A DNA stretch of 19,818 nucleotides from the NCBI GenBank assembly GCA_025361385.1, contig JANYAJ010000250.1:1-19818 (forward strand), in the 5' to 3' direction. The stretch is from Nitrospira sp. Its GTDB lineage: Bacteria; Nitrospirota; Nitrospiria; Nitrospirales; Nitrospiraceae. How positions within the stretch are numbered: position 1 is the first letter of the stretch; the number at the start of each line of letters is the position of its first letter. Under the pieces are notes generated by a model that saw only the letters and a program-made list of their open reading frames with translations, was not told the DNA's origin and ran no database searches. A program made the position numbers and the translations under genes. Below, one piece after another: positions 1 through 19,299 of the stretch.

Positions 1-492
1 CTGGAGGATCCCGAGAAATTCTCCGGTTGGGTCGGTCGGAATATAGGCCTTGATCATCGAAGCCAGAGGAGAACGCAGTTCATCGAGCCGTTGCTCAAGA
101 GCGGCATGCAGCGAATCGGCCGAAAAGGTCTCGGCCCTCACCGCCCGGCTTAGGAGATAGCGCGCGCGAAACAAGACCTGCCGTTCTTCGGACGACAAGA
201 CCTGCATGCCGTTGCCCACGAAATCGATCTGGGTATGCGCTCGCAGCCCTTCGCCCAACGTCTTGCTGAGCCTGGCCAATTCATCCGGCGGCGCCCCCTC
301 GATGGCCAACAGCAACATCCGGCCGGCCAAGCCCGAGCGCACCTGCGTCAGCAACAACCGTTGCGTCGCCGTGGTGCCTTCGGGAAGCAGGTCACTCAGT
401 TCGCTATGGACAGACAGACGGGTTCCGGTGAACCAGGCTGCACCCGCGATGAGGGCAACCCAGACGAGAACTGGCCACCAGGCGGCTTTCAT
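1..492 (-). CDS. MMPL/RND-type exporter, N-terminal part (cut by window edge), aryl-polyene cluster type
   Basis: Partial gene of 164 codons running off the left edge. The start is ATG at 492-490, overlapping the TGA of the upstream LolA-like gene by four bases (ATGA), so the two are translationally coupled. The protein begins MKAAWWPVLVWV and has one hydrophobic N-terminal segment (about residues 5-22). A periplasmic-type domain follows, with the stretches HSELSDLLPEG, LLLAIEGAPPDELARL and LFRARYLLSRAV. This layout is typical of the 'predicted exporter' (MMPL superfamily) of aryl-polyene and xanthomonadin clusters, where such proteins are thought to move acyl or pigment intermediates towards the outer membrane. 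Most of the permease lies outside the window, so the later membrane helices cannot be checked. The family call rests on the N-terminus plus neighbours. Confidence 0.75.
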   Translation of the reverse strand, partial: MKAAWWPVLVWVALIAGAAWFTGTRLSVHSELSDLLPEGTTATQRLLLTQVRSGLAGRMLLLAIEGAPPDELARLSKTLGEGLRAHTQIDFVGNGMQVLSSEERQVLFRARYLLSRAVRAETFSADSLHAALEQRLDELRSPLASMIKAYIPTDPTGEFLGILQ

Positions 493-1196
493 TTGGATGG
501 TCCCCGGCGAAGCGTCATCACCGAGCGGTCGCCATCCGGCGCTCGGATAGCGATGGTCGTCAGGTGCCCTTCCGACCCGGACAACAGCAGATAGTCGACC
601 ATAGACTTTCCGGCAGGATCGTAGGGACGGAGCAGCAATGTCCATTGTCGGCTGGTGCCGTCAACGGTAGTTTCGTACACTTTCTTGAGCTGTGCCACAT
701 CGCCCGTGAGCGTCGCCCGAAAGGCTTCAACAAAGCTGCGTAACGCTGGATAGTCTTCAAGAGAAATGGTTTTCTTCACATGCTTGCGTTCACTCTCGAA
801 AGTCACCCGGTCTCCCTCAATGAGGTACCGTTCCCGGTACGGCTCCAGCACGTCCTTCTCCAATGTCGACGGGGGCGTGAAGCGCAACAGGCCGCGCACG
901 ATCAAGGGCTCGGTGAGCAATGACGAGTAGGTCGCTTCTTCAAACGATACTGAGGGCTCTCGCCCTTCCTTCAGCGAGGCCACGACCTGCTCGACCGTCC
1001 AAGCACGACTTGAATGGTCGCTGTGAGACGTCACATTCTCGCCGGCTGTTGCCAGGGAACCGATCAGTGGAAGCATTCCTAGGATACTGATCCACAGGAT
1101 GCTCAACAGGTTCGTCCAGCAAGGCCGCAGCGAGCGAGCAACTGAACGTTGAACTTTGAACGATGAATGTTGAGGTGAAGATCGTTTTTCATTCAC
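489..1196 (-). CDS. LolA-like outer-membrane lipoprotein carrier protein of the pigment cluster
   Basis: Up to 235 aa. A hydrophobic segment (about residues 29-51, LLSILWISILGMLPLIG...ATAG) looks like a signal peptide or anchor. The mature part resembles LolA-fold proteins: the VRGLLRFTPPSTLEK strand pair, a RYLIEGDRVTFES stretch, LRSFVEAFRATLTGD, and a C-terminal RQWTLLLRPYD...VDYLLLSGSEGHLTTIAIRAPDGD pattern. Divergent LolA-like proteins sit next to the exporter in aryl-polyene clusters, presumably handling lipid-linked product in the periplasm. The start is doubtful. The GTG at 1196 has no clear ribosome-binding site, and the first about 20 codons are encoded by degenerate heptamer repeats. 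A TTG at 1106 or ATG at 1076 are alternatives. The stop overlaps the exporter start by four bases. Confidence 0.75.
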   Translation of the reverse strand: MNEKRSSPQHSSFKVQRSVARSLRPCWTNLLSILWISILGMLPLIGSLATAGENVTSHSDHSSRAWTVEQVVASLKEGREPSVSFEEATYSSLLTEPLIVRGLLRFTPPSTLEKDVLEPYRERYLIEGDRVTFESERKHVKKTISLEDYPALRSFVEAFRATLTGDVAQLKKVYETTVDGTSRQWTLLLRPYDPAGKSMVDYLLLSGSEGHLTTIAIRAPDGDRSVMTLRRGPSK

Positions 1197-1222
1197 AGTT
1201 CATCACTCATCGTTCAACGTTT
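1144..1222. repeat. Two inverted arrays of degenerate heptamer repeats (GAACGTT/GAACGAT type)
   Basis: On the plus strand from 1144 the sequence reads in 7-base steps: GAACGTT, GAACTTT, GAACGAT, GAATGTT, GAGGTGA. On the minus strand from 1222 it reads AAACGTT, GAACGAT, GAGTGAT, GAACTGT, GAATGAA. The two arrays therefore face each other. They share an exact 11-mer (TTGAACGATGA, plus 1156-1166 and minus 1217-1207), so the transcript could fold back on itself. The arrays fill the gap between the acyltransferase stop and the LolA-like gene and cover that gene's nominal GTG start. The pattern is direct observation; its function is unknown. Confidence 0.7.
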
Positions 1223-1251
1223 CCTGTCTGGCGGACCTGTTCAGCATCCTG

Positions 1252-2148
1252 TTACGGCTTATCGTTCCAAAATTCATAGAAGTTAAACCAATTGTCCGGC
1301 GCGAGGCGGCAACATGCTTCAAGGCGATCAGCATACCGTTGCGCCCACCGCTGCAGATCGATGGCGCGCTGATCGGGCGACAGATCCATCCCTTCGCTAA
1401 AGGACTCGAGATACACCTCATAGCGATTCCCCCCCCGGTACAGCCCGAAGAAGAGGACCACCGGAGCATGGACGACGCGGGCCAATCGCATCGCTCCGGT
1501 CGGAAACCTGGCTTGCCCCCCCAAGAAAGTACAGGCAAGCGACTGATCGTTCTGCATCACACGATCGCCCATGATCCCGACGACACCACCCCGATCCAGA
1601 CATTCTTTTACTTGCAGCATAGTGCCAGGCCCGCCGACCTGAATGACTGTCTCCGCGACGGCGGGATTCAACTCCTGAATCAGGTGACGAATCAAGGGCG
1701 CGTTCTGCTCATCCATCAGGACGCGGATCTCGATGTGCTGACGGGACAGTCCTACGGCCCGCACCACTTCAAAGCTTCCAAGGTGCGACCCCAGGAGCAC
1801 ACAACCACGGCCTTTCGCCAACTCACGGTCTAACACCTCTAACCCATGGATCTGAATATCGAACAGATCGAACCGGCTACGCAGAAAATAGACCCGGTCA
1901 AGGATCGTTGCGGCGAAGGCAAGGTAATGGCGATAGAGATCGCACCACCCGACCGGCCGACCGAACAGCCGCTCACGAAATTGCGTGATCGCCTTGCGGG
2001 CAGACCCTGAGGCCAACAGAAAATACAGACAGATCGGATGGAGCAGGACCCGAGCGGTCGGACGACCCAGCGATTGCGCGATCCAGGCCATCAACCGGAT
2101 GGCCGTCCGGCTCCCGCGTTCCTGCTGCTGTTGCCAGGCGAGGCTCAC
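1252..2148 (-). CDS. LpxL/HtrB-type lysophospholipid acyltransferase (LPLAT), pigment-cluster type
   Basis: 298 aa from a GTG start at 2148, whose last two bases overlap the TGA of the dehydratase gene (GTGA). The reading frame is open further upstream, but no better start is seen, and the family typically begins with W-x-x-Q-x-E-R-G-S, here WQQQQERGS at residues 4-12. The segment VLLGSHLGSFEVVRAV carries the HX4E motif (H-L-G-S-F-E) used for acyl transfer by LpxL-type enzymes. GVVGIMGDR and FPTGAMRLARVVHAPVVLFFG are the usual following motifs, and the protein ends in WFNFYEFW. In aryl-polyene clusters the equivalent gene is often a glycosyltransferase-acyltransferase fusion; this one has only the acyltransferase. 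The likely role is attaching the polyene acid to a lipid or sugar acceptor at the inner membrane. Confidence 0.87.
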   Translation of the reverse strand: MSLAWQQQQERGSRTAIRLMAWIAQSLGRPTARVLLHPICLYFLLASGSARKAITQFRERLFGRPVGWCDLYRHYLAFAATILDRVYFLRSRFDLFDIQIHGLEVLDRELAKGRGCVLLGSHLGSFEVVRAVGLSRQHIEIRVLMDEQNAPLIRHLIQELNPAVAETVIQVGGPGTMLQVKECLDRGGVVGIMGDRVMQNDQSLACTFLGGQARFPTGAMRLARVVHAPVVLFFGLYRGGNRYEVYLESFSEGMDLSPDQRAIDLQRWAQRYADRLEACCRLAPDNWFNFYEFWNDKP

Positions 2149-2471
2149 GTCCGTTCCATGTGCGCCGTTGCGCCAGGCATGAACTCGATGGTGCCGGATG
2201 CCACAAGGCGCGCGTCCACCCGGCAAGAAAATGTGGCCCGTCCGGCTCCCTCTTCATCCACGCGGATGGTCACAGCCTCGCCCGGTCTGAGCGGAGAAGA
2301 AAATTTCACCGTCGGCAGACCCTTCACCACCAATGGAGCCGCCGATCCCCGACGCAGGGTGTCGAGCACTTCGTTCAGCAGAACCACACCAGGCACGACG
2401 GGATAGCCAGGGAAGTGCCCCGCCAGCGACGGATGGTCATGGCCGATGGAGAGCACCCGCTCATGTACCAT
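2145..2471 (-). CDS. Short FabZ/FabA-like hotdog 3-hydroxyacyl-ACP dehydratase (ApeI-like)
   Basis: 108 aa from ATG at 2471, overlapping the end of the ligase gene by 11 bases. The frame stays open upstream inside the ligase, but the homologous part starts at MVHERVLSIGHDHPSLAGHFPGYPVVPG. The motif GHFPGYPVVPG is the FabZ/FabA hotdog signature containing the catalytic histidine. Where FabZ-like enzymes have an acidic residue five positions after the PG pair, this protein has asparagine (PGVVLLNEV) with glutamate next to it. The expected role is dehydrating 3-hydroxyacyl-ACP intermediates during polyene extension. It is shorter than housekeeping FabZ (about 150 aa) but normal for this cluster type. 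The stop codon overlaps the GTG of the next gene. Confidence 0.8.
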   Translation of the reverse strand: MVHERVLSIGHDHPSLAGHFPGYPVVPGVVLLNEVLDTLRRGSAAPLVVKGLPTVKFSSPLRPGEAVTIRVDEEGAGRATFSCRVDARLVASGTIEFMPGATAHMERT

Positions 2472-3807
2472 GGCCCTGCCCTGCCAGCCATTGCCGGGCC
2501 AGCTCACGTACCGATTCCTGTGGCAGTTTTCCGGTGGCATTGCGCGGCAGACTGGGAACACAGACCAAGGGGCGGGGCAGAAACACCGGATCGATCTGGG
2601 TCCGCAACCCGCGCTGAATCTCTTCGCTGGTTTTTCCCGGAGCCACGACAAAGGCCATCAGCCTGGTGACGAAATCGGAGCCCTCCTCGGGCAAGTAGAA
2701 GACGCCATCCTGTACCCCCTCGATCTCCAGCAGTTTTTGATTCAAGTCGCCGAGCGATACCCTATGGCCTGCGACGTTGATCTGGTCTGCTTCCCGACCA
2801 TGGACGATGAACAGCCCCTGCGCATCGACGGTCATGCGGTCCGGCACCCGAACCGGATGGGGAAGGTAGTCCGTACATACGCTCCATCCCCTGTCGCTGG
2901 ATTGAAGCCGCACTCCATCTAAGGGCCGCCAGGAATCCCCCGCCGTCGTTCGTCGCTCCGCGACGCTGCCGGCTTCGGCAAATCCGAAAATTTCGTGCAC
3001 CTCCGTGTGAAAGTGCCGTTCAGCTTCTTGAGCCAAGCCCTGAGAAAGGGGAGCGGTGGCGGAAAGGATCAGCCCGACCGGCGGCATTCTCACGCCTTCG
3101 GTCATGCAGGCGCGAAGATGCAAGGGTGTGGTCACGAGAATCCTTCGCCCCTCCACGTCGGCCAAGGCGCTCAGGATGTCGGCCGGGAAGAGCGGTCGCC
3201 CGGCATGCATGACTAATCCATGCATGAGGGGCAACATGACGGAGGCTTCGAGGCCGAACATATGTTGATGCGGAACGGTGGCCACCACCGAGGCGCGATC
3301 GCCGCCTTTGATGCCGAGCCTGGATCCGGTTGCGTGAGCCACGGCCGTCAACGCCCCCCACGTTTTCTTGTTGGGCATCGGCTGACCTGTGCTCCCGGAG
3401 GTGAAGGCGATCGCCACGACTTGATTCAGGGGGACTAGCGGAATCTCGTCCGGCCAAGGAGCCAGGCCTTGTCGATGTTGGATCGCGACAGACTCGATCC
3501 CCTCGATCGCATCGTCACGATCGGTCAGGGCGTAACTCTCTGGGTAATCGCCGGCGATACGGCGAAGAGTCTGGACCGCCCGGCTTTGAGGCAGCAACGT
3601 CAACTGCCGCCGGAGAATCGCCGCGGCAAATCCCACCAGAAACTCGTAGCGGCTCGTTGCGAGATTGATGACGGTGAGCCGATCGGGCAAGGATTCAGCG
3701 AGTCGGGCGACATCGGATAAAAACTGCCGCGCCGTGCGTGAACCATCCGGCTCCCAGGCCAGCACATCGTCCGGACTATAGGGGCCGATCAAAGGGGTAT
3801 CGTGCAT
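2461..3807 (-). CDS. AMP-forming acyl/aryl ligase (ANL superfamily), aryl-polyene starter activation
   Basis: 448 aa, start ATG at 3807, 13 bases after the ACP stop, with GGGTGGG as a possible ribosome-binding site. ANL motifs are visible: the P-loop FTSGSTGQPMPNKKTWG (about residues 134-150), VPHQHMFGLEASV, the A5-like EIFGFAEAGSVAE in place of YGxTE, the hinge region VHGREADQINVAGHRVSL, and the catalytic C-terminal lysine in LPRNATGKLPQE. The compact length, the TWG after the P-loop and the FAEAGS form are seen in ligases of aryl-polyene clusters, which activate a hydroxybenzoate-type acid and load it on an ACP. The substrate cannot be read from the sequence; ordinary fatty acid activation is the alternative. 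Direct neighbours on both sides (ACP and dehydratase) fit loading and processing on a carrier. Confidence 0.85.
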   Translation of the reverse strand: MHDTPLIGPYSPDDVLAWEPDGSRTARQFLSDVARLAESLPDRLTVINLATSRYEFLVGFAAAILRRQLTLLPQSRAVQTLRRIAGDYPESYALTDRDDAIEGIESVAIQHRQGLAPWPDEIPLVPLNQVVAIAFTSGSTGQPMPNKKTWGALTAVAHATGSRLGIKGGDRASVVATVPHQHMFGLEASVMLPLMHGLVMHAGRPLFPADILSALADVEGRRILVTTPLHLRACMTEGVRMPPVGLILSATAPLSQGLAQEAERHFHTEVHEIFGFAEAGSVAERRTTAGDSWRPLDGVRLQSSDRGWSVCTDYLPHPVRVPDRMTVDAQGLFIVHGREADQINVAGHRVSLGDLNQKLLEIEGVQDGVFYLPEEGSDFVTRLMAFVVAPGKTSEEIQRGLRTQIDPVFLPRPLVCVPSLPRNATGKLPQESVRELARQWLAGQGHGT

Positions 3808-3820
3808 GGCCCACCCGCAG

Positions 3821-4099
3821 TCACTTCGTGCGGTTCTTCACAATCGCATTGGCCAACGCCCGCAGGGAAGAAAAGATGGCTTTAATGTCTGGATCGCTCG
3901 ACTTGAGTTGATAGCCGTAGGTTTGTGAAATGGCCAGCGAAAGCTCCAAGGCATCGATCGAGTCGAGGCCGAGCCCGTCTCCGAACAGCGCGGCGTCAGG
4001 CTGGATCGTAGCCGGATCGATCTTCAGCTTGAGCGTCTGAACGATCAGCGTCGCCACCTCTGGTTCGAGCGGCCTTGATTCTGAATGTTCCATATTCAT
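3821..4099 (-). CDS. Acyl carrier protein
   Basis: 92 aa, start ATG at 4099, one base after the TAG of the methyltransferase gene; a second in-frame ATG lies two codons on. The segment FGDGLGLDSIDALELSLAI contains the phosphopantetheine-attachment serine in the DSI motif (about residue 47). Length and helix pattern fit a stand-alone type II carrier. It lies directly before the AMP-forming ligase, which probably loads it. Aryl-polyene clusters usually carry two ACP genes in tandem; only one is present here, though a second could lie outside the window. It is not the housekeeping fatty-acid ACP, whose usual fab neighbours are absent. Confidence 0.88.
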   Translation of the reverse strand: MNMEHSESRPLEPEVATLIVQTLKLKIDPATIQPDAALFGDGLGLDSIDALELSLAISQTYGYQLKSSDPDIKAIFSSLRALANAIVKNRTK

Positions 4100-4100
4100 A

Positions 4101-4892
4101 CTAGGTTCTCACCGCCCGGTAATCTCGCAAGAGCCCGTTGAAGATCTCGTGCAACGAACAATCGGTCAACCCGACCTCCCGTAACGCGCCGAGGATCGTC
4201 TCCGGCGAGACACAGAACTCGGTCGTATCCCACCAATAGGCCATCAATGTTTTCATATCCCGATTCCCGGTCGAGGCGGTAAAGGCGAGACCCATGACCG
4301 TCTTGATGTAAAAACGCGACAGGGACAGCAGCAGCGAAGAGCGAGGCCGGCAGATGTCTAACAACAGCACAATCCCTCCCGGCTTGAGTACACGTCGATA
4401 CTCAGCAAACGCGGTTTTCAGATCCGAGAGATGGCGCATGGCATAGCCCATACTCAAGAAATCGAAACTCTGATCGGGAAAGGGCAGCTGCTCTCCTATG
4501 CCTCGCACTACATTCCGGCAGGGGCCCTTCTGGGCCTCCCGCAACATTCCCATGCTCGGATCCAGCCCAACCACTCTACCAGACGGGCCAACCAATTCAT
4601 GGGCACCTTGCGAGACTAAACCAGGCCCACAGGCGACATCTAGCACATGCATCCCGGCCTTCAGTCCCGCTTCCCGGAGCGCCTTTTTCCGATACCAGAG
4701 TCCGGAGCCGAATCCGGTGGCCATATCGATATTGCGATACTGATAGGCCGTCCGGTCAAACAGCTCGTTCAGAAATACTTGACGCTTCTTGTCCTCGGAA
4801 TAGTATCGGCGCAAGGGAGGATGGGGCGCGACAGGCACCATGGGCAGCTGGGACAGGGGGCGCTCACCGGATGGGTCTGTACCGACGCTCAT
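4101..4892 (-). CDS. Class I SAM-dependent methyltransferase (UbiE-like), first gene of the pigment cluster
   Basis: 263 aa from ATG at 4892, chosen because AGAGGT lies seven bases upstream and because a TTG further up (4952) falls inside the predicted -35 box. The SAM-binding motif I is VLDVACGPGLVSQGA, motif II includes VVGLDPSMGML, and motif III is RVLKPGGIVLLLDICRP. MGYAMRHLSDLKTAFAEYRRVL is close to the UbiE/MenG pattern. The N-terminal stretch FDRTAYQYRNIDMATGFGSGLWYRKKAL also matches that group. Leading an operon of ACP, ligase, dehydratase and acyltransferase, it is more likely to modify the aryl head of a polyene than to act in quinone synthesis. Methyltransferases occupy the same first position in characterised aryl-polyene clusters. 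A respiratory quinone role is the alternative. Confidence 0.82.
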   Translation of the reverse strand: MSVGTDPSGERPLSQLPMVPVAPHPPLRRYYSEDKKRQVFLNELFDRTAYQYRNIDMATGFGSGLWYRKKALREAGLKAGMHVLDVACGPGLVSQGAHELVGPSGRVVGLDPSMGMLREAQKGPCRNVVRGIGEQLPFPDQSFDFLSMGYAMRHLSDLKTAFAEYRRVLKPGGIVLLLDICRPRSSLLLSLSRFYIKTVMGLAFTASTGNRDMKTLMAYWWDTTEFCVSPETILGALREVGLTDCSLHEIFNGLLRDYRAVRT

Positions 4893-4923
4893 AATGGACC
4901 TCTGGAAACCGGTGGTTGGCACT

Positions 4924-4952
4924 CTTGTAGCAGGACTCTCTGGTACGGGCAA
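4924..4952 (-). promoter_or_regulatory. Candidate sigma-70 promoter of the pigment cluster
   Basis: Minus strand: TTGCCC (4952-4947), 17-base spacer, TACAAG (4929-4924). Four of six bases match at each box and the spacing is ideal. Predicted transcription start is about 4917, giving a 25-base leader before ATG 4892, with AGAGGT in place. It lies in the only gap between the cluster and the upstream DUF4105 gene. Confidence 0.45.
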
Positions 4953-4966
4953 GGGGGCGCGACCGA

Positions 4967-6925
4967 TTAGAAGAAGGCTTGGACGGAAAAGACCAGGTCA
5001 TTGTCCCGGTCACGATGGTTATATTCCACCCGCAATGCCCAATTCTGCGAGAGCGTATAGCGCGATCCGGCATACCAGCGGATGTCGTCGGACTTGTCTC
5101 CGAGCGCATAACGCAGGTAGGAGCCGGACAGCATCAACTTCCAGCGATCGGTGGCGTCGACCAACAGCCCCACCGTCCCGCCACCTCCAACCCGATGCCG
5201 CTCTTCGTAGGCTCTGCTGTAGTTGGCTTCGGCTTCGGCAAATGCAAAATAGACTTCGCGCTTGAACAGCGCCGTTTCTGCCGCAGCCCCGAGACCTACG
5301 TTGGCGACTCCATTGCTGCAGAGAGTACAGCCATTGTGCCGGATCGTCTGCATCCCGACATTCACCTTCCAGGACGGCAGCTGCGAGAGAGAATCCATCG
5401 GGGCCAGCGAAACAATATTGATCGGACTGAACCGCTCGACACGGGCCTGCGATTGGTCGTGGTAATGGCGCAACGACAGGGACATGATTTCTATTTGTGC
5501 ATCGGGCGTGAACCCCGGCTCCGGATCCAGCAAATTATGGTACGCGGCGCGGATGTTGGCTTCTTCAAACGCGCGATGGTTCCGCCATCCGGCTCCGATC
5601 CCGATTCGACTGGTTCCATGACCCAAATCGGGCTGTTTGACATAGGGCTGGATCGGCAGATCGCGCGGGGTCACTTTCAACTCACTTCTCGCACGGAGAA
5701 TTGTTCGATTCTTCTCTCGGAATGGAAGGCCTTCCTCTCCTCCAACTGCACTATGCTGCAGCAGGTAATCCGACGCAGTTTCCAGTACGAAGGCCTGTCG
5801 GTCTTGTTGCAGCGTACGAAAACCCTCTGACTGAAGATCCGCGGGATTTCGAATCAGGCGATCGAACCAAACACGCTCGTCAGCCGACATTGACGCTCGC
5901 TTGCGACGCACCAACGTGCTTCTGGATGGGCGAGATACGACCTCGCCGACCAATCCCGATTCCCGTACGAGCCGAACGGTATCAATGGGAATCGTATAGA
6001 CGGGAAACCGGTCAAGCAGATGGACCGACGGCTCGGCAGCCTCAAGGAGAGACAGAATATGGTATGCGCAGTTTTCGCCAAAGAAAAAGTAATCGAAATA
6101 GGCGTTTCCCAATTCCCAGGTATGCATCAAAAGTCTCCGCACTTGCGGAGCCGTCAGATTTAACCGGTACTCCCAAATATCCCGATTATCGATGTCGCGA
6201 TATTCCTGCACTTTGAGGTAATAGGGAATCGTTGAGAAGTAGCCTGGATAGGCCCCAAAGATACCCTTGATGGCATATTCCACCCCGGCATCGGCGGGCA
6301 ATTGTGCCGCGTAGTTGATCGTGTAGGCGAGAATGCGGGTCTGCGGCGTCTGCTCCTTCCCGTCCACCCGCAGAAACGTGTGGCCGAACATGGAGGACGG
6401 GTTATTCATGAAACCAGACGGGAAAATGATGGTGATCGCGGCGGCGTTGAATTCGTCGTACCAGCGCGTGAAACGTTCGCAGGGTTGTGGAGTGAGCCTA
6501 GCTGCGTCGAACCGTAGCTTCTCGTTCAGCCAATAATACCGCGCGACAAAGGCGCATTGCGCCGGCTGCTTCGATCGGCCCACAAGTTCATCTGAAAAAA
6601 AATTACTCAGCGTCGCTGCCAACTCAGCCTGTGGATTGGTCTTTCCCTCCGGAGAGAGAAAAAATCCCGGATCGTCTTGCATGCTCTCGGTCCCACCGAA
6701 AAGCGTACGACGGTAGTGCAGCAGCACATGCCACTCACGTTCTTCGGCAAGATGCATGGCTTCTGCGCGGCCGATGAGTTCATTGAGATAGAGAATATCA
6801 GGAGCCTCAGCTGCCCAACTGGGTATCGCGCCAAGAATGATCAGACAGGAAACAAGAAGGAGGAGAAGGAGGAACGGGGATCTAAAAGGCCCGTGGGGTT
6901 CCAGCTGATACAACCGGAACCCCAC
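4967..6925 (-). CDS. DUF4105 (Lnb N-terminal periplasmic domain-like) protein with C-terminal outer-membrane barrel
   Basis: 652 aa with an N-terminal signal segment (about residues 16-38, ending PSWAAEA). Residues about 40-330 match DUF4105. They contain conserved tryptophan/tyrosine-rich pieces, SMFGHTFLRVDG (histidine) and FFGENCAYHILSLLEA (cysteine), the presumed Cys/His pair of this NlpC/P60-like fold. The domain is related to Lnb, the lipoprotein transacylase of some Firmicutes, so an acyl-transfer or hydrolase activity in the periplasm is possible but unproven. The last about 230 residues alternate as amphipathic strands and end in FSVQAFF with a terminal Phe, as in outer-membrane barrels. 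The start is uncertain: GTG at 6925 lacks a ribosome-binding site and lies in a perfect 10-bp hairpin. Only nine bases separate it from the DUF3015 stop. Confidence 0.82.
   Translation of the reverse strand: MGFRLYQLEPHGPFRSPFLLLLLLVSCLIILGAIPSWAAEAPDILYLNELIGRAEAMHLAEEREWHVLLHYRRTLFGGTESMQDDPGFFLSPEGKTNPQAELAATLSNFFSDELVGRSKQPAQCAFVARYYWLNEKLRFDAARLTPQPCERFTRWYDEFNAAAITIIFPSGFMNNPSSMFGHTFLRVDGKEQTPQTRILAYTINYAAQLPADAGVEYAIKGIFGAYPGYFSTIPYYLKVQEYRDIDNRDIWEYRLNLTAPQVRRLLMHTWELGNAYFDYFFFGENCAYHILSLLEAAEPSVHLLDRFPVYTIPIDTVRLVRESGLVGEVVSRPSRSTLVRRKRASMSADERVWFDRLIRNPADLQSEGFRTLQQDRQAFVLETASDYLLQHSAVGGEEGLPFREKNRTILRARSELKVTPRDLPIQPYVKQPDLGHGTSRIGIGAGWRNHRAFEEANIRAAYHNLLDPEPGFTPDAQIEIMSLSLRHYHDQSQARVERFSPINIVSLAPMDSLSQLPSWKVNVGMQTIRHNGCTLCSNGVANVGLGAAAETALFKREVYFAFAEAEANYSRAYEERHRVGGGGTVGLLVDATDRWKLMLSGSYLRYALGDKSDDIRWYAGSRYTLSQNWALRVEYNHRDRDNDLVFSVQAFF
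6893..6925 (-). terminator. Perfect 10-bp hairpin after the DUF3015 gene, overlapping the next start
   Basis: Minus strand arms GTGGGGTTCC (6925-6916) and GGAACCCCAC (6902-6893) pair perfectly across a 13-base loop and are followed by GGGCC and TTTT. This could terminate the DUF3015 message, though the T-tract is short and offset. It also includes the nominal GTG start of the DUF4105 gene, so it may act as a translational or attenuation element instead. Confidence 0.5.
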
Positions 6926-12926: not shown

Positions 12927-15900
12927 CTACTTGGATCGAGGTGAGGCGACGGAGCGGGCGCTCTCAATCGCAACCGTTTGAACCGTGGGAATGATAGCCG
13001 CAACATCAAGATGGAGATCGCCATCTTGATCCTTGCCGTCTCGCCCGACACTATACATCACGCCCCTCTGCTGGTTGACCAGCATGGGAAGACCGGTAAA
13101 GGGATCGTAGTAGGCTTGCCCGGCCTTTGCGAGACGTGTGAGGACATTCCCCTCTTGCGGCCCTCGTCTAATCCAGACTTGCAGGCCCGCCAGACGAAGT
13201 CGCGCATCGGTCTCCACGATCCGTCCGACGTAGGGATCCCAAGAGGGGAGCGGCTCGATACCGATGATGTGCTCGACCGGATTCGCCACATAGTCCAACG
13301 CACTGACCGCGGGAGTCCGGATGAAGCTGGATGATTTCGGCAAGTTGGTGTAGCGCCCTTCGGCCACGGCTTTGCTCGCCGCTTCGTAATAGTCCGCATA
13401 GGCGTTGGCCCGACGCTGCACGGGAAGAGGCATCGCCGCCGCCAGGGAAACGTACAGCGGACGCTCATCGGTCTTGTCGTTCTTCAGGCTGCTCGGCACC
13501 GTCTTCGTGGCCCACACGAAATGGCTCTGCATCGGCCACCGAAGGGATAGTTCTACCTGATCGAGGGGACGAACGATCTTGCCAAGCCGACCGATGGCTG
13601 GCGCATCGAGGTCCTGACGGGTCAAGAGTCCGGACGCAATGACCACATCGTCCTGAACTGCCGTCGCAGCCAACATCTTGACCATCAACGTCTTCGACTG
13701 TCCCAGCGCTACGCGCCAGGACCCCATATCGCTTTCAAGTCGTCCAAGTCCGGTATTGAGATCCTGCGCAAACCCTTCTGCCAGATACAGCCGATGGGCC
13801 AGCAGAACTTGGGCACAGTTTGGGCTCACGATTTGTCCGTACCCCACATCTTCAAACGGCATCGACAACCATTGTTGGTAGCGCTTGAGGCCAACCGCTT
13901 CTTGAGCCGACCATGATCGTACGGCTGCAGCCTGAGGCTTCATCTGCGCCACGGGGTCGGTACCGCTGAACCACCCTCTCAACACATTGGCAGAGGCCCC
14001 GCTGGTCGTCATCCCTGTCCCTTCATCGCCGGCCATACAGGCCTGTGCCGCCTGAAGCTCTTGCCCCTCGACCTTCCTCTCGTAGCCAGCTTGGAGTGGG
14101 TCCCGTTCCGCAGACGAGTCGAAACCAAGCAGCATAAAGTACCCGTTCTTTCGTGGGTCTGTATGCGCCTGAGGAGAATTAGCCGTCAGGTTGCGATAGA
14201 TCGGGGTCGGGGGCTCTTCCATGACGAGCCAGGCCACTCCCACCCCTCCGATACCGATCGCGACCAGGGCCGCACAGGCAAACGCCAACCCCAAGCATAA
14301 TACGACCATCGATTGCGTCGTCGAAAAACAGGACCCGATCATCGATGAGAGGCCACTGCGGATCCGAGCCACTCTCGTCGCAAACAATGGAGAAGGTCGC
14401 GACCGTGCCATACGATCCTGCGCGGGAGCCTGATTTCCCTGTCCCGTTGAGTCAAACAGGACATCCACCGCCGACGCAGCGACCGAGAATGCAGGTTCCG
14501 GCTTGGACTGGACAGATTCGATGCCGGAATCCTGCCACGTTGCCGGAGAGGAGGGACTAGGAGTCACAAATGTGATCGACTCACTCGCCCGCACCCATTC
14601 CGGTCTCGTATCTACTTCATGAACCACTTGCTCTACGATAGGAGGCGTCGCCTCAGAGGGAGCCGACGCCCAATCAGCTCGCGGCGTAGCAACCGGCTCA
14701 TATTCCTCTACCACCGGCACGGGAGCTGAGGGAACGACTGTCGCTTCCCCTTTTTCCTTGTCCCAGTTTCGCTTCTTGTCAGTCGGACGATGTGGTTGCA
14801 CCTCGACTTCGCCAGTACTCCAATGTGAAGGAGTATCTATTGGAGCCAATGGCACCGATGGCGCATCACTGGCCGTTTCGGAGAACGGAGGAGTCTCGGC
14901 GATCTGGACTGGTGTACTGGTTACTTCATCGTTGACTGTTGAGAAAGTTTCCGATGCGGGCAGTGCTTCCGGAATCACCGCTGAGGATGAAGTCTCCGGA
15001 ACGGCGGCGTCCTGAAATGGCGCCACGGGCTGCGGATCCATGAAAAATGAGGACGATACGGGTTCAGCCTCGCGAGCGAGTTCGATGGGCTCCGACATCG
15101 TCTGTGCTGAAAGGTCCACCTCAAGAACGTCTGAGATCTCGACCGAAAGAGGCGATGACTCTTCCTGACGCGAGGGCGCTTCCGACAGAAAATCCGCTAC
15201 GGACTCAGGAAGATCTGGCTCTCTGATCACATCTGTTTCTGGGATCGATTCACGCTCTTGATTCAAGCCAAAAGCCTGAAGCGATGGCACTGGATCTGGT
15301 TCCGTGAATGAGAATGGCGGTGCTGGCGGTGCGGTACTAAAGTGATCGGCGAGCGCTGGCTCTGGCGCTGATTCAGACTGAACTGATTCCGGCTCCCTCG
15401 CATCCGGTGAAATCGCATCCGGCTTAGAGAATGAGCCAGGCGAACTCGGTGCCGAAGTTCCCGCGCCAAACTTCCATGCGCCATCAAAGACGGAGTTCCA
15501 TGAAAATGGGACAGATGAAGAAGAATCTGCGACAGAAGGGGTCGGGGCTTCAGGTTCTGGAACCACCGGCGAATCCACAGCATAGCTCAACGCACTCGGC
15601 ATCGTCGGCTCTGGCGCAAACACAGAACTCGCCAGCGGCGCTTCTACCGATTCTGACTGAGCAATGAAGGAGAGCGTCGGAACTTCAGGCTCTGATAGCA
15701 CCGTGGGGCTTGCCGATGAATCCACTGCATAGCTCAACGCACTCGGCACCGTCGGCTCTGGCGTAAACTCAGAACTCACCGGCAGCGCGACCTCCGATTC
15801 TGGCTCAGCAACGAAGGAGAGCGTCGGCTCTTCAGGCTCTGACACCACCGCAAGGCTCACCGCCGAATCCACCTCAGACGACTGACCTGGCTCTGGCAAT

Positions 15901-17213
15901 TCCTGAGAAAAATTCAGGCTGGCCAACTGATCGGATGCAGGTTCAGGCTGTGACATGCTGGGCGAGGCAGGAAACGATTCGGCGCCAAAGAGTGGGGCCT
16001 CATCCGATTGAGCTGGAGGCGCTATCGACGGCGCCGCATCTTCAATTCTGATATTGGAATGTTCGATCTGTTCCCAAGGCATGGGAGCGGACAACCGCGG
16101 CGATTCGACGGGAGAAGGGATGGATATCCCGACCTCCGTTGCACGCTCCTCTAAAGAGTCAGGAGTAGACCCTTCTCCCACAACAGAGGGAGACAATTCG
16201 AAAATCGGCTGCCCAATCCCAATATCATCACGATGTTCGGAAGGCGAAAGTGGCGGCTCGGCCGATACCATCGGAGGGGCAGACGGGGCGTCTCCAGAAC
16301 TCGGCAAGCACGACATCTCTGGTGAATGATCCTGCCCGGAAGAATCGGCTGGCAGGATTGGCTCCGTCGATTCGGACAATGGAACCAGCAGTTCCTGAGG
16401 GACCGAAGAAACAGGTGCCGGGTCGATCAAGACCTCCGGAACCTTGATCGATTCAATGACGGGACTTGAAGTCGCAGGCAGCGGCACCTCTTGATTGCCC
16501 GAAGCACGATCACCCTGCTCCCACGACATTACGCTGGAAGGACTTGCCTCTTCAGTGGGGGTAAGTATTACATCCTGAGGCTGGGCAGTATCGACTGCTG
16601 GTAACGTCGCTGCTTCAGCGACTACCGGCGCAGACCCTAAATAATCACCGGTTTGTATGTCGAAGAGCGAGGCAAATTGAAACGCCACAGAGCTAGCCGG
16701 TGCAAGCGCTCTCACCTTGGCATAGAGCTCAGACGGCTTCTTGGGATTGTCAGAGTCGGGGCTCTCGATGAGAATATCGATCGCCTTGCCCAATTCGGCC
16801 ACCGCGGCCATGGCATCGCCCTTTTCCTCATACACATGAGCCAATAGTTCGAGAAACCGTACGCACCGAGGTCCGGCAGCTAAGTATTCACGCAATAGGG
16901 ATTCGGCTAACCAAAAGTCTTGCCTGCCGATCGCTTCATTGGCGAGAGATTCAAATGCCTGCCGAGCCGTGACGAGACTCCCGAGTCGCAGATGCAGCGT
17001 GGCAAAGAGCCGGCGAGCTTCCGTATTGTGAGGATCAAGGGTGAGCAACTCTTTCAACGCAGCAGACGACCGGCCGTATTTGCCGGTGTTCATGTGCGTG
17101 ATGGCTTCTTCGAGCAGTGCGCTCTTCTTGCTGTAGCCAACAAGACCCCGCTTCGGTGCCCGGAAGGGAGTCTTTTTGTCAGTTTTTTGAGGGGGAGTTT
17201 TATCCGTCCGCAC
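12927..17213 (-). CDS. Very large TPR protein with disordered repeat linker, one membrane helix and pseudopilin-like C-terminus
   Basis: 1428 aa, GTG start at 17213 with AAGG about eight bases upstream. Residues 30-170 form TPR-like helices (AITHMNTGKYGRSSAALKELLTLDP, ARRLFATLHLRLGSLVTARQAFESL, LLAHVYEEKGDAMAAVAELGKAI). Residues about 190-960 are Pro/Ser/Glu/Ala-rich and probably disordered, with a 49-residue tandem repeat. A single transmembrane segment follows at about 966-996 (MVVLCLGLAFACAALVAIGIGG). The remainder is periplasmic: NGYFMLLGFDSS near 1015, and near the end YYDPFTGLPMLV...GVMYSVGRDGKDQDGD, which resembles the C-terminal loop of type II secretion major pseudopilins. No signal peptide precedes the TPRs, so they are cytoplasmic. 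Divergence from gspD suggests a role in a secretion or pilus machine, but no specific function is established. It is not FimV: no LysM is visible. Confidence 0.8.
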   Translation of the reverse strand: MRTDKTPPQKTDKKTPFRAPKRGLVGYSKKSALLEEAITHMNTGKYGRSSAALKELLTLDPHNTEARRLFATLHLRLGSLVTARQAFESLANEAIGRQDFWLAESLLREYLAAGPRCVRFLELLAHVYEEKGDAMAAVAELGKAIDILIESPDSDNPKKPSELYAKVRALAPASSVAFQFASLFDIQTGDYLGSAPVVAEAATLPAVDTAQPQDVILTPTEEASPSSVMSWEQGDRASGNQEVPLPATSSPVIESIKVPEVLIDPAPVSSVPQELLVPLSESTEPILPADSSGQDHSPEMSCLPSSGDAPSAPPMVSAEPPLSPSEHRDDIGIGQPIFELSPSVVGEGSTPDSLEERATEVGISIPSPVESPRLSAPMPWEQIEHSNIRIEDAAPSIAPPAQSDEAPLFGAESFPASPSMSQPEPASDQLASLNFSQELPEPGQSSEVDSAVSLAVVSEPEEPTLSFVAEPESEVALPVSSEFTPEPTVPSALSYAVDSSASPTVLSEPEVPTLSFIAQSESVEAPLASSVFAPEPTMPSALSYAVDSPVVPEPEAPTPSVADSSSSVPFSWNSVFDGAWKFGAGTSAPSSPGSFSKPDAISPDAREPESVQSESAPEPALADHFSTAPPAPPFSFTEPDPVPSLQAFGLNQERESIPETDVIREPDLPESVADFLSEAPSRQEESSPLSVEISDVLEVDLSAQTMSEPIELAREAEPVSSSFFMDPQPVAPFQDAAVPETSSSAVIPEALPASETFSTVNDEVTSTPVQIAETPPFSETASDAPSVPLAPIDTPSHWSTGEVEVQPHRPTDKKRNWDKEKGEATVVPSAPVPVVEEYEPVATPRADWASAPSEATPPIVEQVVHEVDTRPEWVRASESITFVTPSPSSPATWQDSGIESVQSKPEPAFSVAASAVDVLFDSTGQGNQAPAQDRMARSRPSPLFATRVARIRSGLSSMIGSCFSTTQSMVVLCLGLAFACAALVAIGIGGVGVAWLVMEEPPTPIYRNLTANSPQAHTDPRKNGYFMLLGFDSSAERDPLQAGYERKVEGQELQAAQACMAGDEGTGMTTSGASANVLRGWFSGTDPVAQMKPQAAAVRSWSAQEAVGLKRYQQWLSMPFEDVGYGQIVSPNCAQVLLAHRLYLAEGFAQDLNTGLGRLESDMGSWRVALGQSKTLMVKMLAATAVQDDVVIASGLLTRQDLDAPAIGRLGKIVRPLDQVELSLRWPMQSHFVWATKTVPSSLKNDKTDERPLYVSLAAAMPLPVQRRANAYADYYEAASKAVAEGRYTNLPKSSSFIRTPAVSALDYVANPVEHIIGIEPLPSWDPYVGRIVETDARLRLAGLQVWIRRGPQEGNVLTRLAKAGQAYYDPFTGLPMLVNQQRGVMYSVGRDGKDQDGDLHLDVAAIIPTVQTVAIESARSVASPRSK
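15571..15864. repeat. 147-bp in-frame tandem repeat in the linker of the large TPR gene
   Basis: The plus-strand landmark GAATCCAC recurs at 15571, 15718 and 15865, exactly 147 bases (49 codons) apart. The two full units share long stretches such as GCATAGCTCAACGCACTCGG and GAAGGAGAGCGTCGG, and the third copy is partial. On the protein they give repeated PSALSYAVDS and EPEVPTLSF-type blocks. This indicates recent expansion of the linker. Confidence 0.85.
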
Positions 17214-17700: not shown

Positions 17701-19299
17701 ATGAATGTTCTCTCTTTCGGACAATTTAGGTGGATCCGGCAGACCTCTCTCATCTGCGTACTGGCAGTATTGACTGTATCTCTGCTTCCTCTCACCCTGC
17801 GGGCCGAATCTGGCGCAAGCTCACCTGGCCGCGTCTCCCTTGACTTCAATGACGTTGAACTCTCCGTTTTTGTTCGTTTCATTAGCGAATTGACCGGCAA
17901 AAACTTTGTCTTGGATGATGTCGTCAAGAAAGCTGGTGGAAAAATCAGCGTGTATTCCCCCACCAAGGTCACGCACGACCAAGCCTACAGCATGTTCGTG
18001 GCAGCGCTCGAGGTGAGCCGTCTGGCTGTCGTCCAGAAAGGCAACGTCAATCAGATCGTCGCGATGGGGGATCTTCCTCCAGAACGAGGCGCGTTCGTCT
18101 ACAAACTCAAACATGCCAATGCGACCGACCTGGCGGCCATCCTGACCAATCTCGTCGCCCGATCTCAGACCGTGGCACAGACAGCGCCGGGCACGCGACC
18201 GCTATTCAGGCCCTTGAGCGAATTCGAAGCCCCCGTTCAAGTCTTTGCGGACAAAGCCACAAATTCGATCATCATCAGTGCGACCAAAAGCGCCTATACC
18301 AAGTTGCAATCCGTCATTCGAGACCTGGATACGCGCCGGAAGCAGGTCTTTGTCGAAGCCGTCATCTTGGAGGTGCAGGTTGATCGGCTCCGACAGATCG
18401 GAAGCGACCCTCTTCAGGTCATTGGCGTCGGCAAAAGCGGTTCCGTGCAAGGCTTTGGCGGATTCAATACCGCGCCGGAAAACTTGTCCAACATTGCTCA
18501 GGCCATTAGCGGGGTTGCTGCGGGTGGGGCAACAGGAGGAGCAGTCACAGTGCTCAACACGGTCAACGTGCGAGCATTTCTTCAGCTGTTGCTGAGCCTC
18601 ACGGACACCAACGTCCTCTCGACACCTCAAGTACTCGCCGCAGACAATCAAAAGGCTAAAATCGTCGTGGGTGAAAATCGTCCCTTCCCAACCGGCCAGG
18701 CCCAAGGAATCACGGGCGGCACGCTCGTCACGATCGAACGAAAAGACGTCGGCGTCACACTGGAGTTCACGCCCCAAGTCTTAGAGAACGACCTGATCCG
18801 CTTGGAAATTAAGCAGGAGATTTCGGCTATCGCGGAAAATGTGTCACAAACGATCGGAACAGGCACCTCTTCCGTCCCCGTGGGTCCCACCACGACCAAA
18901 CGGTCGATGGAAACCACCACTATTGCGAAAGATCAACAGACCATCGTCATCGGCGGGCTCGTACGGGACAATCTCGTCCTCAACGAACGGAAAGTCCCGC
19001 TCCTTGGAGATATTCCGCTCTTAGGCTGGCTCTTCCGCTTCCAAAGCCGAGCGACCGAGAAACTCAGCCTGCTGGTGTTTCTGACCCCAACCTTAGTCAG
19101 GGATGAAGCGGACATGGTGGAGTTGAACGCCCGTAAAGCAGCGGAGCTGGGAACCCTGCAGCGTGAAAGTCGAATCGAGGAACCCACGAGACTCAAGCAG
19201 GATGTCCTGGAAAAACTCGAACGCCCAAATGGGTCATCCCACCAGTCCTCCCCTAGCCAAACGCCCGTCCCCCCTCAGCCTCTGCCGCGCCCTGAATAA
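17701..19299 (+). CDS. gspD: Type II secretion-type secretin GspD, short form
   Basis: 532 aa; ATG 17701 follows an in-frame stop (17695-17697), so no longer start exists. A signal peptide ends near residues 34-36 (LTLRAES). The N0-type domain (about 44-120) is VSLDFNDVELSVFVRFISELTGKNFVLDD. One N1-type domain follows (FVYKLKHANATDLAAILTNL to RDLDTRRKQVFVEAVILEVQ). The secretin core contains NVLSTPQVLAADNQKAKIVVGE, VGVTLEFTPQVLEND, TTIAKDQQTIVIGGL and VPLLGDIPLLGWLFRF, ending LLVFLTPTLVRD. Typical GspD is about 650-700 aa with N0 to N3; this protein has only one N1-like repeat before the core, so it is reduced. A proline-rich tail follows. It would form an outer-membrane channel for a type II secretion or related pilus system; no gspE/F/G genes are in the window. 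Confidence 0.85.
   Translation: MNVLSFGQFRWIRQTSLICVLAVLTVSLLPLTLRAESGASSPGRVSLDFNDVELSVFVRFISELTGKNFVLDDVVKKAGGKISVYSPTKVTHDQAYSMFVAALEVSRLAVVQKGNVNQIVAMGDLPPERGAFVYKLKHANATDLAAILTNLVARSQTVAQTAPGTRPLFRPLSEFEAPVQVFADKATNSIIISATKSAYTKLQSVIRDLDTRRKQVFVEAVILEVQVDRLRQIGSDPLQVIGVGKSGSVQGFGGFNTAPENLSNIAQAISGVAAGGATGGAVTVLNTVNVRAFLQLLLSLTDTNVLSTPQVLAADNQKAKIVVGENRPFPTGQAQGITGGTLVTIERKDVGVTLEFTPQVLENDLIRLEIKQEISAIAENVSQTIGTGTSSVPVGPTTTKRSMETTTIAKDQQTIVIGGLVRDNLVLNERKVPLLGDIPLLGWLFRFQSRATEKLSLLVFLTPTLVRDEADMVELNARKAAELGTLQRESRIEEPTRLKQDVLEKLERPNGSSHQSSPSQTPVPPQPLPRPE

Follow-up and report, generated by a model that had tools for sequence, protein, structure and literature searches.

A probable xanthomonadin-type aryl-polyene gene cluster in a Nitrospira, with a chorismatase linked to it in relatives

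The DNA analysed here, referred to as the window, is a stretch of 19,818 nucleotides from a host that is a Nitrospira, as judged by its nearest named relatives, in an assembly that is 82% complete with 5.7% contamination. Positions 1-4892 hold, on the minus strand, a closely packed series of genes, the front half of an operon, for a methyltransferase, an ACP, a ligase, a dehydratase, an LPLAT, a LolA-like protein and an MMPL exporter, in this order. A sequence-only reading had proposed this order, a Nitrospira-like host and junctions that either overlap by 4 to 11 bases or leave small gaps, and was right on all three, on the last because the junctions, in gene order, are gaps of 1 and 13, overlaps of 11 and 4, a gap of 55 and an overlap of 4 bases. 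That only the front half of the cluster is visible also holds, as the MMPL gene runs off the window at position 1 and continues in contig C84 of the same assembly, to which window positions 1-118 are identical over all 118 bases and which carries the operon's other half.

The methyltransferase (4101-4892, minus strand) is SAM-dependent and UbiE/COQ5-like (PF01209, 88 bits; PF08241), probably acting on ring or chain; it was identified in 6 of 11 fetched relatives and in 16 of the 24 Nitrospirota loci of at least 18 kb, and E. coli ApeB gave no match to it at E 0.01. The ACP (3821-4099, minus strand; PF00550; NF006617 at 106 bits, cutoff 70) is of the ApeE type, with 45% to E. coli ApeE as against 32% to ApeF, and the Ser of its GLDSIDA motif is conserved in 29 of 30 alignment rows, the other row having a gap. 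It is followed by a candidate aryl-acid:ACP ligase (2461-3807, minus strand; PF00501 and PF13193), ApeH/ArcT-like with 28% identity to E. coli ApeH, whose substrate we infer and whose neighborhood is the same in relatives. The ApeI-like hotdog dehydratase (DH1; 2145-2471, minus strand; 30% to E. coli ApeI) scores 22.4 bits with a FabA-like profile, slightly below the Pfam cutoff of 23, and has FabZ 5bux as top PDB match (E 3.5e-6), with 6qsr_A of the ApeI:P complex at E 1e-4; its His is conserved in 30 of 30 alignment rows. The LpxL-type acyltransferase (LPLAT; 1252-2148, minus strand; PF03279) shows 31% to ApeJ of E. coli over its acyltransferase half (250-550); for the LolA-like periplasmic carrier (about 489-1196, minus strand; LolA_3, PF19574, 76 bits), a blast comparison with ApeL gave nothing at E 0.01. 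Positions 1-492 (minus strand) encode the N-terminal part of an ApeM-like MMPL/RND exporter (24% to ApeM), which extends in G000:C84 up to base 1948; the window piece is without a Pfam match, PF03176 falls on the C84 continuation, and the 824-aa reading across the join matches those of G011, G008, G017 and G009 at 91-95%. The ACP, ligase, dehydratase, LolA and MMPL genes stand in the same order in 11/11 relatives fetched (ligase identity 42-95%), and the gene order was seen again, with variations, across 80 loci, so that the arrangement is not due to chance.

The remaining part of the operon on C84 carries an ApeO-type ketosynthase (KS), an ApeC-type chain-length factor (CLF), an ApeP-type dehydratase (DH2), a ketoreductase (KR) and a GT2. 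The KS and CLF-like genes are adjacent, with a 4-base overlap; the top PDB match of the KS is ApeO (6qsp_A, E 3.7e-72), and its short partner matches only 6qsp_B and 7f28_A in the PDB, up to E 0.1, these being the two ApeC chains with solved structures (entries as identified in PMC8358021). The Cys/His/Lys/His set of the KS is conserved in 41/41 rows (40 titled Nitrospirota and L076, titled Proteobacteria) and in 39/39 others, and the equivalent CLF column varies. For DH2, 6qsr_B came first in the PDB search and was the sole profile match (E 1e-12); it is also first by fold E-value for the predicted model (pLDDT 91.8), for which some FabZ chains reach TM-scores of up to 0.82 as against 0.74 for ApeP. 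An ACP, a candidate aryl-acid ligase, a KR and two hotdog dehydratases are present, as are an acyltransferase, a glycosyltransferase, a LolA-like carrier, an MMPL exporter and an ApeA-like lipoprotein. The proposed aryl-polyene/xanthomonadin-type identity is thereby supported. Among the genes that the sequence-only reading had named as ones to look for, the ketosynthase, its CLF-like partner, the ketoreductase and the second dehydratase were recovered on C84, whereas the DUF3261 lipoprotein (ApeN) and an ApeR-type second active ketosynthase were not found in the cluster.

One ACP, an unfused acyltransferase and the lack of a thioesterase had been noted as differences from the best-known clusters, and they are true both of the segment and of the remaining recovered cluster. 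A check of all places found a single KS place in 40/40 Nitrospirota loci, with no thioesterase and no second acyltransferase, and the only second ACP-like place was a 22-codon piece in L047; among 40 proteobacterial loci, two KS places occur in 5 and two acyltransferase places in 16, as against none in the 40 Nitrospirota loci. In a KS tree built by a quick method, with SH-aLRT support only and a long outgroup branch, 39/40 Nitrospirota-titled rows and the window form one clade (98), L081 groups with Proteobacteria, and G032 takes an unresolved position outside the clade. No direction of horizontal transfer is claimed.

Another contig of the same genome, C188, carries a chorismatase that is truncated where the contig ends, together with a flavin halogenase-like protein, and is placed with the cluster by synteny only. 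The chorismatase is physically linked to the cluster in relatives: it is present in 24/24 Nitrospirota loci of at least 18 kb, lies 2.8-9.3 kb from the KS in 29 of the 30 genomes in which a single contig carries both (the exception being G232), and among 32 host-genus genomes was found in the 12 that have the KS and in no other. Its scores of 138-242 bits are under the NCBIfam cutoff of 325, and its closest structure is 5ag3, which we take to be Hyg5. The flavin halogenase-like protein is a putative halogenase by its PF04820 match (102 bits); both Trp of W-x-W-x-I-P, a halogenase motif, are present in 24 of 25 Nitrospirota rows (1 gap), and 6 of the 24 Nitrospirota loci of at least 18 kb gave no halogenase match. 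A polysaccharide deacetylase is a cluster member in relatives and is not among the cluster genes recovered from this genome. The link between chorismatase and KS is not universal, because in a phylum sample (n=395) 10 of 40 KS-positive genomes have no chorismatase match and 7 of 37 chorismatase-positive genomes have no KS at 55% identity; these 40 leave out nine weak KS matches (36-44% identity) of 49, and the co-occurrence p-values ignore shared ancestry. HAL/TAL was rejected as a starter source in the 10 KS-positive, chorismatase-negative genomes, with 0/11 found (the eleventh genome searched, G232, has a chorismatase).

The xan genes of Xanthomonas encode a type II PKS set as in Lysobacter, and Xanthomonas has a halogenase. 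The Lysobacter enzymogenes cluster, as described in PMC3691225, resembles the present one in its type II PKS with KS and short partner, one ACP, two dehydratases, KR, acyltransferase, LolA, exporter and XanB2 homolog; it differs in host phylum and gene order, and the halogenase is absent from the cluster as given there. The arc genes of Azoarcus sp. BH72, as set out in PMC3949708, are a like set that makes arcuflavin, a xanthomonadin-dialkylresorcinol hybrid, and in which ArcB makes 3- and 4-hydroxybenzoate. They have in common with the Nitrospira cluster the methyltransferase, polysaccharide deacetylase, exporter, LolA, acyltransferase, two dehydratases, ligase and ACP, and also the KS, short KS-N partner, KR, glycosyltransferase, XanB2-type chorismatase and halogenase. 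By the same account arc occupies two loci as against one in Nitrospira, where a second acyltransferase (arcD) was not found, no dar genes are seen in the cluster, and ApeA-like lipoproteins are present. Of the two labels, "xanthomonadin-type" fits better, because one ACP, no thioesterase and a separate GT2 accompany the chorismatase and halogenase, as in arc (PMC3949708), and the three differences noted earlier largely follow from the cluster being of this type. We are thus confident that this Nitrospira has a complete xanthomonadin-type aryl-polyene cluster and that the window holds its front half. The basis of this reading comprises genes, order, homology, catalytic residues, and genome-level and physical linkage, the physical linkage being observed in relatives and C188 being assigned here by synteny.

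The alternative that survives best, although we consider it rather unlikely, is an ordinary, non-halogenated aryl polyene of the APE_Ec kind that starts from 4-hydroxybenzoate (4-HBA), with the chorismatase serving mainly to supply 4-HBA. In its favor, as in that of the xanthomonadin-type reading, eleven cluster proteins have counterparts in ten ape genes of E. coli (ApeA, C, E, H, I, J, M, O, P and Q, with ApeJ divided between two proteins here). XanB2-type enzymes, moreover, yield both 3- and 4-HBA according to PMC3949708, where sequence alone is said not to settle a chorismatase's product. Compared with APE_Ec of E. coli CFT073 and the Xenorhabdus doucetiae APE, as these are presented in the sources (PMC8253772, PMC8358021; 6QSP, 6QSR), counterparts of ApeA, C, E, H, I, M, O, P and Q are present and ApeJ is split into LPLAT and GT2, whereas counterparts of ApeB, D, F, G, K, N and R were not found, and a chorismatase, a halogenase-like protein and a different methyltransferase are added. 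A tblastn search (E 1e-3) of 40 Nitrospirota loci, 24 of them at least 18 kb, gave 0/40 with a counterpart of ApeR, ApeF, ApeK, ApeG, ApeD, ApeN or ApeB. The adjoining chorismatase and halogenase are xanthomonadin/arcuflavin features, the GT2 is a separate gene at the operon's far end with the LPLAT within the operon, unlike the fusion in E. coli ApeJ, and UbiC was found in 0/32 genus genomes (control: 1/14 known genomes, E. coli), all of which argue against the APE_Ec kind.

A flexirubin- or arcuflavin-kind polyene-dialkylresorcinol ester, or another lipid conjugate, is improbable. The starter of flexirubin comes from an aromatic ammonia lyase, and HAL/TAL (PF00221) was found in 0/32 genus genomes (control: 5/14 known genomes). 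The LolA-like protein scores 30 bits with NF053544 (flexirubin LolA2), far under the cutoff of 125, and the KR 262 bits with its flexirubin model, under the cutoff of 340. Azoarcus joins the same polyene set to dialkylresorcinol as described in PMC3949708, but no dar-type gene (darA/darB) is among the annotated genes of the Nitrospira cluster.

It is very improbable that the cluster is decaying and non-functional in this genome. A palindromic repeat of about 160 bp with 21-nt inverted ends (1094-1252; DNA fold z = -7.5), which has no part in the pathway, is inserted at the LPLAT/LolA junction; it has at least 41 other matching places in the same genome, and the site is empty in L031, L032, L034 and L040. 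The repeat takes in the 55 bases between LPLAT and LolA as well as the start of LolA, which is therefore uncertain (candidates GTG 1196, TTG 1106 or ATG 1076). The start used in relatives, which overlaps the LPLAT end, is here separated from LolA by the repeat (the in-frame stop was read by eye), as would befit decay after a split of the LPLAT-LolA coupling. However, the recovered frames are open with intact catalytic residues, the LolA frame stays open with alternative starts, and the KS is 97.5-98.3% identical to those of the empty-site relatives L031, L032 and L040. A non-aryl lipid or fatty-acid-like pathway with borrowed genes is scarcely credible, for although KS, KR, dehydratases and ACP are FAS-like families and the ligase is only 28% identical to ApeH, it leaves the short ApeC-type CLF, the ApeP-type dehydratase and the linked chorismatase unexplained.

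To return to the xanthomonadin-type reading, we infer the chemistry in all its steps, as well as the starter, halogenation, export and biological role. The FkbO/Hyg5/XanB2-type chorismatase would convert chorismate into 3-hydroxybenzoate, probably the polyene starter, and perhaps into 4-hydroxybenzoate too, and the ligase would load the hydroxybenzoate onto the single ACP. The ApeO:ApeC-type KS/CLF pair would add malonyl units to the starter; in each round the KR would reduce and the ApeI:ApeP-type pair dehydrate. Enoyl groups would stay unreduced, and the result would be a conjugated polyene that the methyltransferase and halogenase-like flavoprotein may decorate. LPLAT and GT2 would join the polyene to a lipid or sugar-lipid, and the MMPL exporter, LolA-like protein and ApeA-like lipoproteins would carry it to the outer membrane. 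The gene set looks complete for making a membrane-bound yellow pigment, an aryl polyene of the Xanthomonas kind, which would absorb near 430-453 nm. More tentatively, the aryl polyene of this lineage might be halogenated, built on 3-hydroxybenzoate and anchored to lipid, be made by a reduced xanthomonadin machine with a single ACP, a single KS-CLF and a single acyltransferase, and serve as a photo- or redox shield in the outer membrane, which we regard as possible rather than probable.

Light inhibits nitrifiers. If such a shield exists, presence or loss of the cluster would help to set light tolerance among them; occurring in only some Nitrospira, it is a genetic marker that can be tested against light and oxidant tolerance. 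According to PMC3949708, pigments of this class protect Xanthomonas from damage by photooxidation, and caution is warranted by N. inopinata, which is light sensitive despite the aryl-polyene cluster listed for it (PMC9765116). The novelty expected of such a cluster outside Proteobacteria and Bacteroidetes is weaker than thought, as antiSMASH aryl-polyene BGCs were listed in 2022 for N. inopinata, N. lenta, N. japonica and N. sp011405515, of the same class and host family, in a list that gives no gene-by-gene account, chorismatase or halogenase (PMC9765116). With the class already reported in Nitrospira, the starter-making and halogenase-like genes make the pigment chemistry testable, and the chorismatase is tied to aryl-polyene supply in a genus where UbiC and HAL/TAL were not found (32 genomes); no account of this link to the Nitrospira cluster was found in the literature searched. 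A linkage to AmoA was rejected: AmoA occurs in 12/32 genus genomes, only 4 of them with the KS (G006, G013, G027, G030), and was not found in G000 (82% complete), G008, G011 or G017. The Lnb/DUF7840 gene at 4967-6925 was likewise rejected as a pathway part, being present in 27/32 genus genomes, 11/12 with the KS and 16/20 without it.

On the minus strand of the window, from 4892 down to 1, the genes run from a methyltransferase through ACP, AMP-dependent ligase, hotdog dehydratase, LpxL-type acyltransferase (LPLAT) and LolA-like protein to the beginning of an MMPL exporter, the successive junctions being a gap of 1, a gap of 13, an overlap of 11, an overlap of 4, a gap of 55 and an overlap of 4 bases, so that the description of genes and junctions in the sequence-only reading was accurate. 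Window bases 1-118 are identical to the end of another contig of the same assembly, C84 (6,583 bases; locus L009), which carries the remainder of the MMPL gene, and no other contig matched these bases among the 40 of 145 candidates that were scored. Read across the join, the exporter has 824 aa and matches its four nearest relatives over the full length (91-95%), which speaks for the join. Next on C84 come the genes for a ketosynthase (KS; L009 1938-3152), a shorter ketosynthase-like protein (3149-3952), another hotdog protein (3940-4383), a reductase of the FabG type (4380-5105) and a GT2 glycosyltransferase (5102-5905), with successive overlaps from the MMPL gene onwards of 11, 4, 13, 4 and 4 bases, and a convergent ApeA-like gene (5886-6308), the product of which shares 40% identity with the E. 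coli protein across 105 residues.

A palindromic repeat of ~160 bp with 21-nt inverted ends (window 1094-1252), which matches at least 41 other places in the genome, sits at the LPLAT/LolA junction; the site is empty in four related loci (L031, L032, L034 and L040), where the LolA start overlaps the LPLAT end, and holds a short remnant in L030. Several relatives carry a gene for a ~225-aa lipoprotein between methyltransferase and ACP (L034 10808-11482, the product of which has no Pfam match; L033 11196-11873; L040 10394-11173), which is absent from the window.

The closest solved structure to the KS is Xenorhabdus ApeO (6qsp_A, E 3.7e-72), and the protein scores 517 bits against NF006618 (cutoff 407). 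For its short partner, a cutoff of E 0.1 leaves two matches, both of them solved ApeC chains (6qsp_B and 7f28_A) from entries named as ApeO-ApeC (PMC8358021). With 267 aa as opposed to 404 aa, the partner is without the C-terminal part carrying both histidines, as would be expected of a chain-length factor (CLF), and source databases call the Nitrospira protein a "beta-ketoacyl synthase chain length factor"; the column aligned with the KS cysteine has C, G or S (10, 11 and 19 of 40 rows, respectively). ApeO-ApeC alone is reported to yield the full polyene, ApeR increasing throughput (PMC8358021). For the second dehydratase, which has no Pfam match, chain 6qsr_B of the ApeI:ApeP complex, assigned to ApeP by its length, is both the top sequence match and the sole profile match (E 1e-12); it is also the first fold match of the predicted model (pLDDT 91.8) by E-value (3.9e-10), with FabZ chains close behind, some of them at higher TM-scores.

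Eleven cluster proteins match 10 of the 18 E. coli CFT073 ape proteins (ApeA, C, E, H, I, J, M, O, P and Q), whereby the ApeJ counterpart is split here, residues 9-226 corresponding to the GT2 and 250-550 to the LPLAT. Within this set of 18, the methyltransferase and the LolA-like protein have no match at E 0.01, ApeB, D, G, K, L and N are matched by no cluster protein, and ApeF and ApeR are reached only as second-best matches of the ACP and the KS, respectively. ApeG, ApeD, ApeK, ApeR, ApeF, ApeN and ApeB were found in none of 40 Nitrospirota loci, each of which has one ketosynthase place. The three differences from the best-known clusters pointed out previously, namely one ACP, an unfused acyltransferase and no thioesterase, hold and fit the xanthomonadin/arcuflavin type: the second ACP is reported to be absent from Xanthomonas xanthomonadin clusters (PMC8253772), and the arc table of Azoarcus has the glycosyl transferase as an entry of its own, along with chorismatase, halogenase and deacetylase (PMC3949708). 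In the most likely mechanism the genes and their linkage are observed, and the chemistry is inferred.

The contig scan for relatives covered the best 80 of 190 loci, half of them (40/80) Nitrospirota by title. ACP, ligase, LPLAT, CLF and chorismatase are each present in 24/24 Nitrospirota loci of at least 18 kb, the halogenase in 18/24 and the methyltransferase in 16/24; the 28 long proteobacterial loci contain ApeG in 17, ApeD in 19, and chorismatase and halogenase in 15 each. Nitrospira accordingly carries a shared block in compact form, not a new one; ApeG or ApeD is missing from several proteobacterial loci as well. In the KS tree, 39 of the 40 Nitrospirota rows form one group with the window (SH-aLRT 98). 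The KS of L081, from a contig titled Nitrospira sp. (MohnsGC08), groups with Muproteobacteria, reflecting either transfer or misbinning. The genome G032, the KS of which also lies outside the main Nitrospirota clade, has its GT2 fused to a second C-terminal domain, glycosyltransferase-like by eye (L038 3004-5058). Nitrospira MAG bin.260 has two clusters (L049 and L073), one near the window type and one reduced, the latter belonging to a clade with a 66% identical KS.

Past the GT2, the related genome G008 carries on the opposite strand three ApeA-like lipoproteins, a polysaccharide deacetylase, a chorismatase and a tryptophan-halogenase-family flavoprotein. In the host assembly, contig C188 holds this halogenase-like gene and a chorismatase truncated where the contig ends, arranged as in G008; C188 is tied to C84 by this gene order shared with relatives, not by joining sequence. 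The G008 chorismatase matches PF21168, scores 201 bits against TIGR04444, below the cutoff of 325, and is nearest to 5ag3 (E 2.5e-42), which we take to be Hyg5, followed by FkbO. Two columns that presumably bear on the product are Gly and Cys in 5ag3 versus Ala in FkbO; among 31 Nitrospirota rows, they hold Gly in 29 (2 gaps) and Cys in 30 (1 gap). Hyg5 is reported to form 3-hydroxybenzoate and XanB2 both 3- and 4-hydroxybenzoate, the alignment by itself not being decisive on the product (PMC3949708). A second chorismatase locus, with methyltransferase and polysaccharide deacetylase, occurs twice in the host assembly (L133 2436-5860 on contig C117, which also has a small ACP, and L134 271-3635 on C517) and once each in the relatives G011, G017 and G013.

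Among 32 genomes of the host genus, the KS (E 1e-60) was found in 12; these 12 also carry the chorismatase, which occurs in 0/20 of the others (Fisher 4.4e-9, a p-value that ignores kinship); the alternative starter sources UbiC and HAL/TAL were each found in 0/32. In a phylum sample of 395 genomes, 40 have the KS (at least 55% identity) and 37 the chorismatase (30 both, 10 KS only, 7 chorismatase only), a count that omits nine weaker KS matches, in genomes with no chorismatase (0/9). Over both searches, 30 genomes have the two genes on a single contig; the distance is 2.8-9.3 kb in 29 of them and ~640 kb in G232, a genome consisting of one contig. In 9 of the 10 KS-only genomes the KS is 57-60% identical; no starter source was found for this group, HAL/TAL being present in 0/11 genomes searched.

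The aryl-polyene class is already known in Nitrospira, since clusters are reported in N. inopinata, N. lenta, N. sp011405515 and N. japonica (PMC9765116), a Nitrospiraceae MAG is listed with one (PMC13055281), type II KS-CLF pairs are described from 14 phyla including Nitrospirae (PMC10132072), and databases carry the CLF label; in the table of PMC5383146, the Nitrospirae bin has no arylpolyene. The literature searched on aryl polyenes, xanthomonadin and chorismatase in Nitrospira, as far as its accessible text goes, contained no link of xanthomonadin with Nitrospira, nothing pairing chorismatase with the genus and no linkage of chorismatase and halogenase to the cluster. Protection against photooxidative damage has been reported for xanthomonadins (PMC3949708), and a photoprotective pigment in Nitrospira can be hypothesized; N. 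inopinata, listed with an aryl-polyene cluster, is described as light sensitive (PMC9797979), therefore protection would be partial at best. AmoA was detected in 12 of the 32 genus genomes, and the host is probably not a comammox organism, because AmoA was found neither in its assembly nor in the near relatives G008, G011 and G017 (each given as 99% complete). Elsewhere in the window, a protein of 1,428 aa, the long middle part of which is rich in Pro, Ser and Glu (12927-17213), is encoded divergently to a GspD/PilQ-type secretin (17701-19299), which scores 349.4 bits against TIGR02517, just below the cutoff of 351.35.
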